Shown here: piece by piece, positions 2 to 5,274 of the stretch
Position numbering within the stretch: position 1 is the first letter of the stretch
How the letters are laid out: each line of letters begins with the position of its first letter
DNA from: Spirochaetae bacterium HGW-Spirochaetae-5
GTDB taxonomy: Bacteria > Spirochaetota > UBA4802 > UBA5550
Direction of reading: 5' to 3'
DNA: 59,144 bases
Assembly: GCA_002839285.1 (NCBI GenBank)
Contig: PGXT01000023.1
Coordinates: forward strand, 1-59,144
Translations under genes and position numbers: made by a program
Notes under the pieces: model-generated
The model's database searches: none
What the model was told of the DNA's origin: nothing
The model's input: only the letters and a program-made list of their open reading frames with translations

Positions 2-142
2 CAAAAACAGGAAATCATGGAAAACATTAAATCTGAACCATATAGAGATGAAAATTTCAGTCTTTCCAGAGAGATAATTCTTGAGAATCGATTAAACAAA
101 ATCAAAGAAATTAAAGACAGGATTAAAGATAAGGCTAAATGA
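2..142 (+). CDS. C-terminal end of an unidentified protein (partial)
   Basis: The frame is open from the first complete codon at base 2 to a TGA at 140-142, giving about 46 residues of the C-terminus. The residues are strongly charged and helical in character, with many Lys, Glu and Ile, and end in KDRIKDKAK-like sequence. The start lies outside the window. It converges on, and overlaps by a few bases, the stop of the minus-strand gene at 135-1880. I do not recognise the family. Compact convergent packing and an intact frame support a real gene end. Confidence 0.5.
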   Translation, partial: QKQEIMENIKSEPYRDENFSLSREIILENRLNKIKEIKDRIKDKAK

Positions 143-1880
143 TATCATCAAGTTCATCGAAAATTGAACCTTCGGTTTTTACAGTTTTAGGTTCACCTGA
201 ATCTCTATTTTCCGGCTGTTTTTCGTTTTCATCGAATTCAAGTTTACCGGAAAGATCCCCTTCAGAACTTATTCTATGAGACAATGCCGATGCATAATTG
301 TATATGATTTCAATTGCTTCATAAATTTTCTTATTCTTTAGTTTTTTTTCACCCTCTATTTCATAGCTGAACTCAAGTATATCCTGAGGATTAGAAATAA
401 ATTTCATCCTTCCATTCATATCATCAATTAACACTTCAAATTCAGCCGCCAGATTATCCATTAAGGATTTTATTACCATTCTGGACATTGAACCGGCCTG
501 CTTTTTCTTCTTTGCTATTTCATCGAGACGCTTGGAATAAGCAATATACTGATTATTATTCATAGGTTTCTGATTGAATATCTTATTATATTCAATGAAT
601 GTATCATAATATGATCTGAACGCATCCTGACATTTTTTCAGCTGATTGAAGATATCCTGCATTTTGATTCTATAATCGATCTTTACATTTGTAGAAAAAT
701 CAATATTATACTTAATCTTGTTTGTGGTTAATATAAATGAATACTCTTTTTCAAATTCAAGGAAAAGCAGGTAGGCAAGCAGTACTTTATCTGTATTATT
801 CAGAAGCTCGAACTCACCTTTTTTATCGTAAATGGATCTTAATGAATTGATGTCCAGTCTGTACATCAGTTTCAGACCCTCTTTAACCGAGTCATTTTCA
901 ATTACTTTCTCATCGGGCTGCTCTGAATCTATCTGAAGATCAGGTTCTTCGGCGTAATCAACCTGCACTGATCTGCTGTCATCACGTCTTACACGATTAC
1001 CCGGTTTTTCAGACTGATAAATTGAAAGAATTTCTTCAATTACCTTATCAGTTTCTGTAAATAAAATACCGTGATAATGGCAGAATATTGTATGAAGCCG
1101 CGGATAAAGTTTATCGAACACAACAAACAAAGCATTTTTCAGATCTTTCTTTCTGATATTTTTATCTTTTTTTCCTTCACTATAAGAAATACTCATATCT
1201 ATTGCTTTTTCAAATGAGTTTAAAATTGAATTTTCATAAGATTTCAGGATAAAAAGTGGACGGAATAGTTCGTTAATTGAATCTCTCAATTCTGAAAGTG
1301 GCTGTGGAATGTCTGGAAAATTACGGTATGAATCGAGAATCTGATCAATTAAAATGGGCTGATAAAGATCACCGGCATTTTCACACAATTCATAATATAT
1401 AGGAGAAATTCTATCAAGGGAGCGGATAATTCTGTTCCCGGTTTTAGGATCTTTTTTGTAAAGAGAAAGAAAAATCATTTGAATCTCAATCAGAGATGGT
1501 TTATAATAATCATTAAATTTCTGAAAAAAAGAATTTTTAAAGAAAACAGTATTGAATCCGGTTACACCTAGAATTCTTAATCTCATTCTAATCCTGAATC
1601 TGTCAAAGGCGGATGAGGAACGTACCGGCATTGCAGATGAGATTTTTTTTTGAGAAACAACCCGTTGATTAGAGGGTACTCTTTTATTACTGTAATGCTC
1701 ATCCAGCCGCTGCTGATGCTGTTTCTGTTTATCTCTATCTATAACAAGACTTCTCCTGGCATCTCTGTCCGATATAACCTGTCCGCCGGCATCTTTGAAT
1801 TTATTAAACAGATCTTTACGCTGACTGTCATCTATTTCGTTTACTCTTAGATTCTGCTTTGTTTTATCAATTTCTTTCAT
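135..1880 (-). CDS. Hypothetical 581-aa charged, largely helical protein
   Basis: I do not recognise this protein. There is no signal peptide and no clear membrane segment, so it is probably cytoplasmic. Residues 1-90 are highly charged and rich in Arg, Asp, Lys and Gln, and look disordered. Residues 100-560 alternate hydrophobic and charged positions, as in an all-helical domain. The last 30 residues are acidic and end in FDELDDII. It stands alone and diverges from the dehydrogenase-fusion gene at 2052. The intervening 170 bases are AT-rich and probably hold both promoters. The long intact frame and normal amino-acid composition make it a real gene. A lineage-specific cytoplasmic protein is the best description. 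Confidence 0.75.
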   Translation of the reverse strand: MKEIDKTKQNLRVNEIDDSQRKDLFNKFKDAGGQVISDRDARRSLVIDRDKQKQHQQRLDEHYSNKRVPSNQRVVSQKKISSAMPVRSSSAFDRFRIRMRLRILGVTGFNTVFFKNSFFQKFNDYYKPSLIEIQMIFLSLYKKDPKTGNRIIRSLDRISPIYYELCENAGDLYQPILIDQILDSYRNFPDIPQPLSELRDSINELFRPLFILKSYENSILNSFEKAIDMSISYSEGKKDKNIRKKDLKNALFVVFDKLYPRLHTIFCHYHGILFTETDKVIEEILSIYQSEKPGNRVRRDDSRSVQVDYAEEPDLQIDSEQPDEKVIENDSVKEGLKLMYRLDINSLRSIYDKKGEFELLNNTDKVLLAYLLFLEFEKEYSFILTTNKIKYNIDFSTNVKIDYRIKMQDIFNQLKKCQDAFRSYYDTFIEYNKIFNQKPMNNNQYIAYSKRLDEIAKKKKQAGSMSRMVIKSLMDNLAAEFEVLIDDMNGRMKFISNPQDILEFSYEIEGEKKLKNKKIYEAIEIIYNYASALSHRISSEGDLSGKLEFDENEKQPENRDSGEPKTVKTEGSIFDELDDII

Positions 1881-2051
1881 TATAAGCCTGTTTAGTTTTT
1901 ATATAAGAGAATCTTAAAATTCTGTCTGAAATATAAAGTAATTCCTTCATAAAATTATGTAAAAAATATTAGCATAAGTCAATTATTTTATTGTTGATAA
2001 ATTACTGTTAAACTATATTGTTCTAATAGAATATTAAGCGGAGACCAGTTT

Positions 2052-3602
2052 ATGAAAAACATCGGAATAATCGGCGCAGGTATAATGGGTACTGATCTTG
2101 CACACATCACTGCAGAAGCCGGTTATCAGGTTAAAATTTTTGATAATAATACAAAAATAGCAGAGAATGCTATCAATCTCATACATGAGAGACTTGATAA
2201 ATATGTCAAAAAGGAACGTATAACAGAATCTGACAGAAAAAAAATTGAGAATCACATAAAGATTGCGTTCAACATGGAGGAATTATCTGATTCTGATATA
2301 CTTCTTGAAGCTGTAAGTGAAGATCTGCATGTAAAAAAAGTTATTTTTTCGCATCTAAATGAGATATGTTCGGCAGGGAGTATCCTTGCTTCTTTAACTT
2401 CATCTATATCAATTACTGATATTGCATCGGCAACAACACGCCCCGAATCTGTTATCGGGCTTCATTTTCTTAATCCGGCAAGAGTACTTAAACTGGTGGA
2501 AATTGTTCCGGGATTTTCCACAACCCGGGAAACAGTTGAAATGGCGAAATCTTTTCTTAAAAAGCTTGGCAAGGATTATATTGAAGCAAAAGACTATCCG
2601 GGATTCTATCTTAATAGAATTTTATATCCCATGATCAATGAGGCAATTTTTCTTCTCTATGAAGGGGGAACAAAACCTGAAATTATAGACAAGGCTATGA
2701 AAAAAGGGCTTAACCTTCCAATGGGGCCGCTTGAAATTGCTGATATGGTAGGACTTGATGTAATTCTCGGTATCGGAGAAGAGATGCTCAGAGGTTATTC
2801 AGATCATAAGTACAGACCCTGCCCTCTTCTGAGAAGATATGTAGCATCGGGTTACCTTGGTAAAAAGACAGGGAGAGGTTTTTACCTTTACTTAATTGCA
2901 TCGCAGTTCGAAGAGCTTGATAAACCACCTGAAGGCGCCCATGAAGGTCAGATCTTTTTTGGCGGTTTTGTGTCTATTGGTCTTCCATCTGGAGATCTGA
3001 TAACTGAAGAGGAAAATTTTGTAAAAGGTAATGTTTATACATTTGACGAAAGTGAAATAACAAAAGAACTGCTTGTAACACATCTGTCCTATGACTTCGG
3101 TCTATCCTTTGAATATATGCCCATCGACTATGTCGGAATTAAAACAAAACTCAAGAGAACGATAATAGTTCAAAGGACAATTTTCGGGGCGGATTTCCAG
3201 AACTGGAGCGAGACTCTTTACAGCAACTATTCAATACTTCTGGGACCTGCTTTTCACCTTACAAACAGAAAACAGTGGGATATAACCTTAACCCCGATGA
3301 TCGGATACGCATATGCAAAATATGCAGCAACCCCCATTGCCGCTGATCTTGTCAGCGGGTACAGCGGAGACAGAAAACGTGATGTAAACGGCATGACTTA
3401 CGGAGCGGAACTTAACCTGACAATCTATTTCAGCGGAGGACTTTATATATCCATAGGTACAGACTGGAATAAATATCCCCTCAGCTTCAGTCCGTCTTAC
3501 TCACTAGCACAGGGTGGAAAAACTTTTATGAATGGAAAAAGTTCAGGGAATATCCAGACTATTAATCTTGCCATATCTGCAGGTTACGCATTTGCAAATT
3601 AA
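2052..3602 (+). CDS. 3-hydroxyacyl-CoA dehydrogenase fused to an outer-membrane beta-barrel domain
   Basis: Residues 1-280 are a complete short 3-hydroxyacyl-CoA (3-hydroxybutyryl-CoA) dehydrogenase. It has the NAD-binding motif IGIIGAGIMG at the start, the catalytic HFLNP segment, the GFYLNRI and LPMGPLEIADMVGLD segments, and the terminal GKKTGRGFY where such enzymes normally stop. Instead of a stop codon the frame continues (LIASQFEEL) into about 232 residues with alternating aromatic and glycine-rich beta strands, ending in AISAGYAFAN like an outer-membrane barrel. No signal peptide precedes the barrel part, although LIASQ at the join resembles the tail of one. The dehydrogenase is cytoplasmic and the barrel needs Sec export, so the fusion makes no obvious sense as one product. 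A deletion or an assembly join is likely. The start ATG has GGAGA about 8 bases upstream. Confidence 0.8.
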   Translation: MKNIGIIGAGIMGTDLAHITAEAGYQVKIFDNNTKIAENAINLIHERLDKYVKKERITESDRKKIENHIKIAFNMEELSDSDILLEAVSEDLHVKKVIFSHLNEICSAGSILASLTSSISITDIASATTRPESVIGLHFLNPARVLKLVEIVPGFSTTRETVEMAKSFLKKLGKDYIEAKDYPGFYLNRILYPMINEAIFLLYEGGTKPEIIDKAMKKGLNLPMGPLEIADMVGLDVILGIGEEMLRGYSDHKYRPCPLLRRYVASGYLGKKTGRGFYLYLIASQFEELDKPPEGAHEGQIFFGGFVSIGLPSGDLITEEENFVKGNVYTFDESEITKELLVTHLSYDFGLSFEYMPIDYVGIKTKLKRTIIVQRTIFGADFQNWSETLYSNYSILLGPAFHLTNRKQWDITLTPMIGYAYAKYAATPIAADLVSGYSGDRKRDVNGMTYGAELNLTIYFSGGLYISIGTDWNKYPLSFSPSYSLAQGGKTFMNGKSSGNIQTINLAISAGYAFAN

Positions 3603-4588
3603 TTCTCTCTGTTCAGTATGTTATTTATAAATTTCACCGCATTTAAAGTTACCCATCTGCTTCTTCCTTTTTTTTCCTTTATCATTCCCTGAAGAGTATT
3701 TTCACAATCCCAGGAACCGTCTATGTTCTGTCTTTTTATAACATAATTAAACAATTCACCGGATATTGATTTTACACCATTACCGGTTTCAGAGACTAAT
3801 ACAAGCCCGGAAAGATAATCGTATTGCGACATGATGGGATAACCGGCTTTATTAAAAATAATATTATTCCCGCAAAGGAGTTTAACTCCGGAGTTAATAA
3901 AAAAATTATTTCTTATAAAAAAATCTGAACCTTTTTTTATTTCATCATCATGGCTATTATTGCCGGCCTGGATTAATGCTTTTAAACAGGAATATGAAGC
4001 TGCTGGACAACTTGTTACTTTATTATCATTTTCGTATTTCAAACCATTACCGGAACCGTTCAAAAATATAAGTTTCATTACATCGCAGAATCCTGCAACG
4101 GGGCAATGAAGCCATCCTCCGTCACTTCTCTGATTTTCTACAATCCAATTCAATCCTGAAGAAGTACGGGAATCTGTTACTCCGCTTTTTAACAAAGAAT
4201 AGACCATATTACCGGTTCGACACCCCACTGCATCGACTAATTTAAAACCGAAACGGAATCCTCCGTTATCAAGCTGGGTTCTGCTGCAGAGATAATCAGC
4301 AGTGGTATTAATAAATTCAGATGTGTTTTTATAACCGCAAGCAGCGGCATAAAGATAAAACCAGACCGATCCGCGGTAGTAAAGATCGGGATGATTTGTA
4401 TCTCCGAGAATACCATTAAATGTATTTTTTTTGAAATATTGTGTTAACTCTGATTCTGCAAGTTCATCATAAATTTTATCTACTTCAATTACTTTTAAAA
4501 CTTCACTCTTAACAAGATATGAAACAGCCGGATTTTCACCATCAGTAAGCCATGGAACAGGATCCATCTTCATGTATTTATTTAACAT
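3599..4588 (-). CDS. Alpha-alpha toroid (prenyltransferase/squalene-oxidase-repeat-like) protein
   Basis: This 329-residue soluble protein has repeated Q..DGG(F/W) motifs: QLDNGGFRF, QRSDGGW and QNIDGSW. These are typical of the alpha-alpha toroid shared by terpene cyclases, protein prenyltransferases and related proteins. It is much shorter than squalene-hopene cyclase (about 630 residues), and I see no DXDD cyclase motif, so catalysis is uncertain. Several Cys and His residues (for example WLHCPVAGFCD) could bind metal. The start overlaps the end of ispD by 7 bases, so the two are translated together. That neighbour hints at an isoprenoid substrate, but this is inference. Its 3' end overlaps the tail of the fusion gene at 3602. 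Confidence 0.65.
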   Translation of the reverse strand: MLNKYMKMDPVPWLTDGENPAVSYLVKSEVLKVIEVDKIYDELAESELTQYFKKNTFNGILGDTNHPDLYYRGSVWFYLYAAACGYKNTSEFINTTADYLCSRTQLDNGGFRFGFKLVDAVGCRTGNMVYSLLKSGVTDSRTSSGLNWIVENQRSDGGWLHCPVAGFCDVMKLIFLNGSGNGLKYENDNKVTSCPAASYSCLKALIQAGNNSHDDEIKKGSDFFIRNNFFINSGVKLLCGNNIIFNKAGYPIMSQYDYLSGLVLVSETGNGVKSISGELFNYVIKRQNIDGSWDCENTLQGMIKEKKGRSRWVTLNAVKFINNILNREN

Positions 4589-5274
4589 TCAGTGCCATCT
4601 TTAATTAAAAATTCTGCGAATCTGAAATCGAGTTCAGTTGTAATCTTTATATTTTTAATAGAACCATCAATTGCATTAATAGCATGCCCCATATTAAATA
4701 CAAGAGAGATATCATCGGTTACCGCCCTACTCCTGTTCTGTCTCTGCAGATCATGAGCCTGCCTGATTAATTTATAACGGAATCCCTGAGGTGTCTGTGC
4801 GGAGTAGACAGTTTTCCTTTCAGGAATTCTTTCAACTATTGAATTCTGTATTAATGCAACTGTATCTGCAGATGGAATATATGTACCGCATGCTCCTGAA
4901 ATTTTTACATTATTAATTATTTCAATTATAATTTTTCCAGTTACAAAGGGACGGGCCGCATCATGAAATAGAAAAATATCATCTTCATTGAATACAGATG
5001 AAATCAGCGCATTATATGAAGAATCAGATCTCTCCTCCCCCCCCTCAATAAATGACTGAATTTTAGGATAATCCGACGCTGGGAACAGATTCTTTATTTC
5101 ATCAATGAGACTCTTTTCTGAAACTATTATTATTTTATCTATCATGTCGATTTTATGAAAAGTATCAACGGACCATGATATTACAGGTTTATTCCCAAGA
5201 ATCAGCATCTGCTTCGGTTTTGTACCACCAAGGCGCAATCCCTTTCCGCCGGCAAGTATAACGGCAATATTCAT
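4582..5274 (-). CDS. ispD: 2-C-methyl-D-erythritol 4-phosphate cytidylyltransferase (IspD)
   Basis: IspD transfers CMP from CTP to MEP, the third step of the non-mevalonate isoprenoid pathway. The protein is 230 residues, the usual length. It has the nucleotide-binding start ILAGGKGLRLGG followed by KPKQ, the HDAARPF motif, QTPQGFR, and TDDISLV near the C-terminus. The related TarI family (ribitol-phosphate cytidylyltransferase) shares these motifs. TarI would be expected beside teichoic-acid genes, and none are here, so IspD is preferred. It is the first gene of a two-gene minus-strand unit with the toroid protein. The gap to the divergent mogA gene is about 90 bases. Confidence 0.85.
   Translation of the reverse strand: MNIAVILAGGKGLRLGGTKPKQMLILGNKPVISWSVDTFHKIDMIDKIIIVSEKSLIDEIKNLFPASDYPKIQSFIEGGEERSDSSYNALISSVFNEDDIFLFHDAARPFVTGKIIIEIINNVKISGACGTYIPSADTVALIQNSIVERIPERKTVYSAQTPQGFRYKLIRQAHDLQRQNRSRAVTDDISLVFNMGHAINAIDGSIKNIKITTELDFRFAEFLIKDGTEC

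Follow-up and report, generated by a model that had tools for sequence, protein, structure and literature searches.

A single open reading frame of 516 amino acids (positions 2052–3602, plus strand, ATG to TAA, no internal stops) joins a complete 3-hydroxyacyl-CoA dehydrogenase (residues 1–280) directly to a mature outer-membrane β-barrel (residues 283–516) in the window, the whole 59,144-nucleotide stretch of Spirochaetae bacterium HGW-Spirochaetae-5 DNA analysed here. The join was probably produced by a natural deletion of roughly 55–70 bp, which would have fused two adjacent operon genes and stranded the barrel. The fusion is probably an ordinary lineage-specific mutation that disables the barrel, and not a new kind of protein. 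The in-frame fusion claimed by the original prediction is borne out by the open frame together with homologue matches on both halves, as residues 1–282 share 77% identity with the dehydrogenase of a genome of the same genus, and residues 280–516 share 61–67% with the barrels of relatives, both far above chance. Aligned separately to homologues, each half corresponds to a gene of its own: in the five nearest relatives with both genes adjacent (G001 from the same genus; G009, G010, G014 and G016 from the same family), the enzyme and the barrel are separate open reading frames in a conserved gene order. The window is one entire contig of the source assembly, a 4.71 Mb draft of an uncultured spirochaete in 309 contigs that is 95% complete. 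The region contains the following features:

135–1880, minus strand: divergent gene of 581 aa upstream of the dehydrogenase, syntenic, with a counterpart of about 585 aa in G001, G009, G014 and G010
2052–2891, plus strand: complete 3-hydroxyacyl/3-hydroxybutyryl-CoA dehydrogenase with NAD-binding and C-terminal domains (Pfam, relatives)
2775–2786, plus strand: in-frame internal ATG (M245, ATG at 2784) with GGAG 5 nt upstream, located by script, a candidate start only
2892–2903, plus strand: junction TTA ATT GCA TCG (LIAS), the leftover end of a signal peptide abutting the last codon of the enzyme (alignment to relatives)
2904–3602, plus strand: mature eight-stranded outer-membrane β-barrel of OmpW/OprG/OmpA-like fold, beginning QFEELDKPPEGAHEGQ and ending at its own TAA stop (relatives, AlphaFold2, Foldseek)
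3599–4588, minus strand: convergent cyclase-like gene, a syntenic neighbour that adjoins the barrel also in G001, G009 and G014

The dehydrogenase half has the make-up of a 3-hydroxyacyl-CoA dehydrogenase, as the Pfam domains 3HCDH_N (residues 3–181; 1.5e-53, 181.8 bits against a cut-off of 22) and 3HCDH (residues 184–280; 1.4e-32, 112.5 bits against a cut-off of 22.1, with the model end reached at 97/97) are both complete and exceed their curated cut-offs. It is 74–78% identical to the separate genes of 280–282 aa in the five nearest relatives, and none of 92 otherwise invariant positions is altered. The nucleotide motif GxGxMG is present as GAGIMG (residues 8–13), and the catalytic-type residues S117, H138, E150 and N188, invariant across a 12-sequence alignment, are kept; we take these to be the Ser/His/Glu/Asn catalytic set, assigned by a spacing that follows human HAD. 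Among solved structures, 3-hydroxybutyryl-CoA dehydrogenases are the closest, with a match over residues 1–281 (phmmer 1.1e-75 to 4KUG). Residues 1–280 correspond to the Hbd/PaaH-type enzymes (PDB 4KUG, 4KUE and 6AA8) across their full length, with the Rossmann motif and the Ser/His/Glu/Asn set also retained, but the window enzyme has no stop after residue 280 and continues into a 236-residue tail. As the match to NCBIfam PRK05808 (3-hydroxybutyryl-CoA dehydrogenase; 336.2 bits) falls below the whole-protein cut-off of 408, the enzyme is named at superfamily level only. This type of dehydrogenase occurs as a single copy in the source assembly.

The barrel half shares 46–67% identity with relatives that bear signal peptides, and 0 of 43 positions invariant in all other sequences are altered. 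The AlphaFold2 model of residues 282–516 (235 residues) is a confident barrel of eight long strands with a mean pLDDT of 88.6, in agreement with the barrel fold that had been assigned to this part, and OprG, OmpA and OmpW are its best fold matches in Foldseek. Eight long strands are also found in the OmpW/OprG-type barrels (PDB 2X27, 2F1T and 8QXP), to which the model is related with an E-value of 1.5e-8 (OprG) and TM-scores of 0.51–0.54 (query) and 0.63–0.68 (target) for OmpW, but sequence identity to this type is just about 10–16%, and the window's barrel differs from it in the absence of a signal peptide and in belonging to a family almost confined to this spirochaete order. Pfam OMP_b-brl scores 22.5 bits in the C-terminal half, below the curated cut-off of 28.7, and the barrel has no match in NCBIfam and no sequence match in PDB. 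A model of the whole fusion was left unused because its dehydrogenase half was unreliable, with pLDDT of about 25–40 over most of residues 131–293, where just six alignment rows were present. At its mature N-terminus the barrel carries the sequence F-[ED]-ELDKPPEGAHxGQ (2904–2951, plus strand), which is nearly invariant across the order, although the first residues of the stretch have no confident structure in AlphaFold2; this region is a possible periplasmic interaction motif.

The segment absent from the window can be delimited from the relatives. Their dehydrogenases end in GFYIY followed by a stop, at the equivalent of Y280, and the barrel ATG follows the stop after 2 nt in G001, 6 nt in G009 and 8–9 nt in G014 and G016. 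All five barrels carry signal peptides about 20 residues long, which end immediately ahead of the near-invariant EELDKPPEGA, and it is with the final residues of these peptides (e.g. SVIFASQ and TSIMASE) that residues 281–284 (LIAS) align. Measured from the last tyrosine codon of the dehydrogenase to the AS/SS at the end of the signal peptide, the distance is 61–74 nt in the relatives versus 6 in the window, a net loss of 55–68 nt that covers the stop, the spacer, the barrel start and all but the last residues of the signal peptide (approximately 20 codons). The original prediction was thus right that the stop was lost exactly where the family usually ends and that the junction carries a signal-peptide tail; its pair of explanations, a deletion or an assembly artefact, is kept, with the geometry that it proposed for the deletion now supported by the homologues. 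As to the short-homology mechanism that it suggested, repeats at the junction are short and trivial only, with no long flanking repeat that could mislead an assembler. Scanning the region for promoters and terminators yielded no informative signal at the junction.

The surroundings of the fusion are otherwise conserved. In G001, G009 and G014 the gene pair is flanked, as in the window, by the divergent gene of about 585 aa and, on the other side, by the convergent cyclase-like gene and ispD, while the pair of G010 is flanked by the gene of about 585 aa and ispD; inspection of G016 covered the DNA of the two genes only. The genes around the window's fusion equal those of G001 in length, which argues against general indel noise. 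The conserved cyclase-like neighbour (about 330 aa), which adjoins ispD, resembles squalene-hopene cyclase only weakly (E 4e-4 to 2.5e-3), the match being to the C-terminal domain of that enzyme. The barrel open reading frame of G010 (4378–5211, plus strand of its locus), as listed, overlaps the dehydrogenase gene and starts within it; as no ATG, GTG or TTG lies between the enzyme stop and the signal peptide, the predicted start must be either a non-standard codon or one within the enzyme gene, in another frame and with a long overlap. In more distant members of the order, the barrel is mostly located away from this dehydrogenase, on other contigs or at distant positions, and the pairing of the two genes is thus a feature of this subclade.

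The fusion itself was found in the window only. By protein search, 37 of the order's 46 genomes contain the barrel, counting the genome of the window, and a profile search of 296 genomes of the phylum showed it to be almost confined to the order; named barrel-bearing relatives are all uncultured spirochaete metagenome-assembled genomes. Relatives with the same fused gene, which the original prediction had named as an argument against an artefact, were not found among the 36 other barrel-bearing genomes of the order (the 364-aa frame of G042 not read in detail), and a conserved clade-wide fusion is rejected, none occurring in the order's 46 genomes or in the 296 sampled from the phylum. The open frame around the window's barrel measures 533 aa from stop to stop, and those of all other members of the order 255–364 aa, with only two above 300 aa (G020 and G042, 364 aa each). 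The frame of G020 is not a fusion, as its barrel starts with a normal signal peptide and no C-terminal enzyme sequence lies upstream, and the 554-aa frame of G009 was rejected as a second fusion because a TGA separates the genes. A single place in the source assembly matches the barrel, with no second intact copy, and no barrel relatives were found in viral contigs and plasmids.

Several genomes of the family that are at least 90% complete have no barrel. In G004 (C1:639000-642500, approximately 1667–2037, plus strand) a barrel remnant in two frames with internal stops, matching the C-terminal half, lies near the usual cyclase-like gene; it is a decayed barrel pseudogene, representing an independent loss in the same family. 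As the barrel is absent from several fairly complete members of the family and frame-broken in G004, it is dispensable.

The consequences for export were assessed by hydrophobicity only, over the 45 residues ahead of the mature barrel. The best 12-residue mean is 0.72 in the window versus 2.36–3.33 in 14 relatives, and seven proteins of the contig presumed to be cytosolic gave a mean of 0.93 over 1738 windows, none of which reaches 2.36. The junction is thus unlike a signal peptide, being no more hydrophobic than cytosolic proteins, and by this test a cleavable N-terminal signal peptide is present in the 14 relatives and absent from the window. That the junction works as a signal peptide is rejected for its weak hydrophobicity; a folded dehydrogenase would in any case precede it.

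The most probable course of events is a deletion in this lineage that would have removed the dehydrogenase stop, a few intergenic bases, the barrel start and nearly all of the signal peptide, so that ribosomes would produce a dehydrogenase with a 236-residue tail. The barrel, having no N-terminal signal peptide, would not enter the Sec/BAM route and would remain in the cytoplasm, where it is probably misfolded, forms aggregates or is trimmed by proteases, while the enzyme most likely retains at least some activity. In effect the outer-membrane protein would be lost, as an early step of barrel loss. One small deletion suffices, as the two genes of G009 are already in frame with one TGA between them and the spacing elsewhere is tight. 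Fusion of bacterial genes through loss of the stop between operon neighbours is a known general kind of event, and the window likewise involves a tightly spaced co-directional pair, one deletion and an in-frame join, but unlike the usual case it unites proteins of different compartments and removes an export signal, and thereby resembles the inactivation of one partner. Genes that run in the same direction often lie a short distance apart, and this closeness is important for the coupling of their translation (PMC10666635); such junctions are thus exposed to fusion-type deletions. The reality and natural origin of the deletion are inferred, as is the fate of the fused protein, and the event is probably recent. 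Against the deletion stand the open frame and the retention of all invariant barrel residues, and a single draft assembly is the only source for the junction. That neither half has decayed (0/43 and 0/92) means that the event is recent, that the protein is still under selection or that the join is not real.

The last of these, an artefact of assembly or strain mixture in which the usual two genes exist and the consensus either wrongly omits about 60 bp or represents a deletion variant carried by a minority of the population, is unlikely but deserves weight: the source genome is a draft in many contigs, the relatives all have two genes and none is fused, both halves appear fully intact and unrelaxed, and a cytoplasmic enzyme and an outer-membrane protein in one chain are biologically awkward. 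Yet no long misleading repeat lies beside the junction, the join preserves the frame, the neighbouring genes are free of indels and the assembly holds no second version of the barrel; a real sequence is favoured because of these intact neighbours and this missing second version. It is highly improbable that the fused gene has been retained as functional, with the barrel still delivered by the fusion protein itself or by a shorter product of internal initiation whose makeshift signal would have been re-created from the C-terminus of the enzyme; nothing speaks positively for either a working fusion or a re-created signal. Rescue by internal initiation, for example at the ATG at 2784, with a shorter barrel exported through the makeshift signal KKTGRGFYLYLIAS, is itself very unlikely. 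The GGAG-5nt-ATG site is present, a basic stretch and then FYLYLIAS precede the barrel, and the barrel frame of G010 must likewise begin within the enzyme gene or use a non-standard start. The hydrophobic stretch is, however, only 7–8 residues long, with a best 8-residue mean of 1.71 versus 2.56–4.04 in relatives, no better than that of cytosolic proteins, and a product started at M245 would still be predicted to have no signal peptide. Moreover, the EEM codons at the site are mostly conserved as coding sequence in relatives, so that the likeness to a Shine-Dalgarno site is non-specific and no evidence of a start. A selected bifunctional fusion, in which the tail benefits the enzyme, for example by membrane tethering, would fit the retention of all otherwise invariant residues in both halves and the extra C-terminal domains past residue ~286 elsewhere in the dehydrogenase superfamily (PaaH and FadB models), but it is improbable in the extreme, given its occurrence in one genome with no fused relative in the order, the absence of an export signal and two functions with no known link.

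With the deletion as the preferred reading, the value of the finding beyond annotation hygiene is low. Domain-architecture databases would show a cytoplasmic enzyme and an outer-membrane barrel in one protein, and such an entry is best read with caution, as a deletion or artefact in a single genome rather than as a sign that the two functions are linked. Should reads confirm the join, the locus would provide a clean snapshot of how the tight spacing of operon genes allows one small deletion to merge two genes and, in the same step, to silence a protein that is normally exported.
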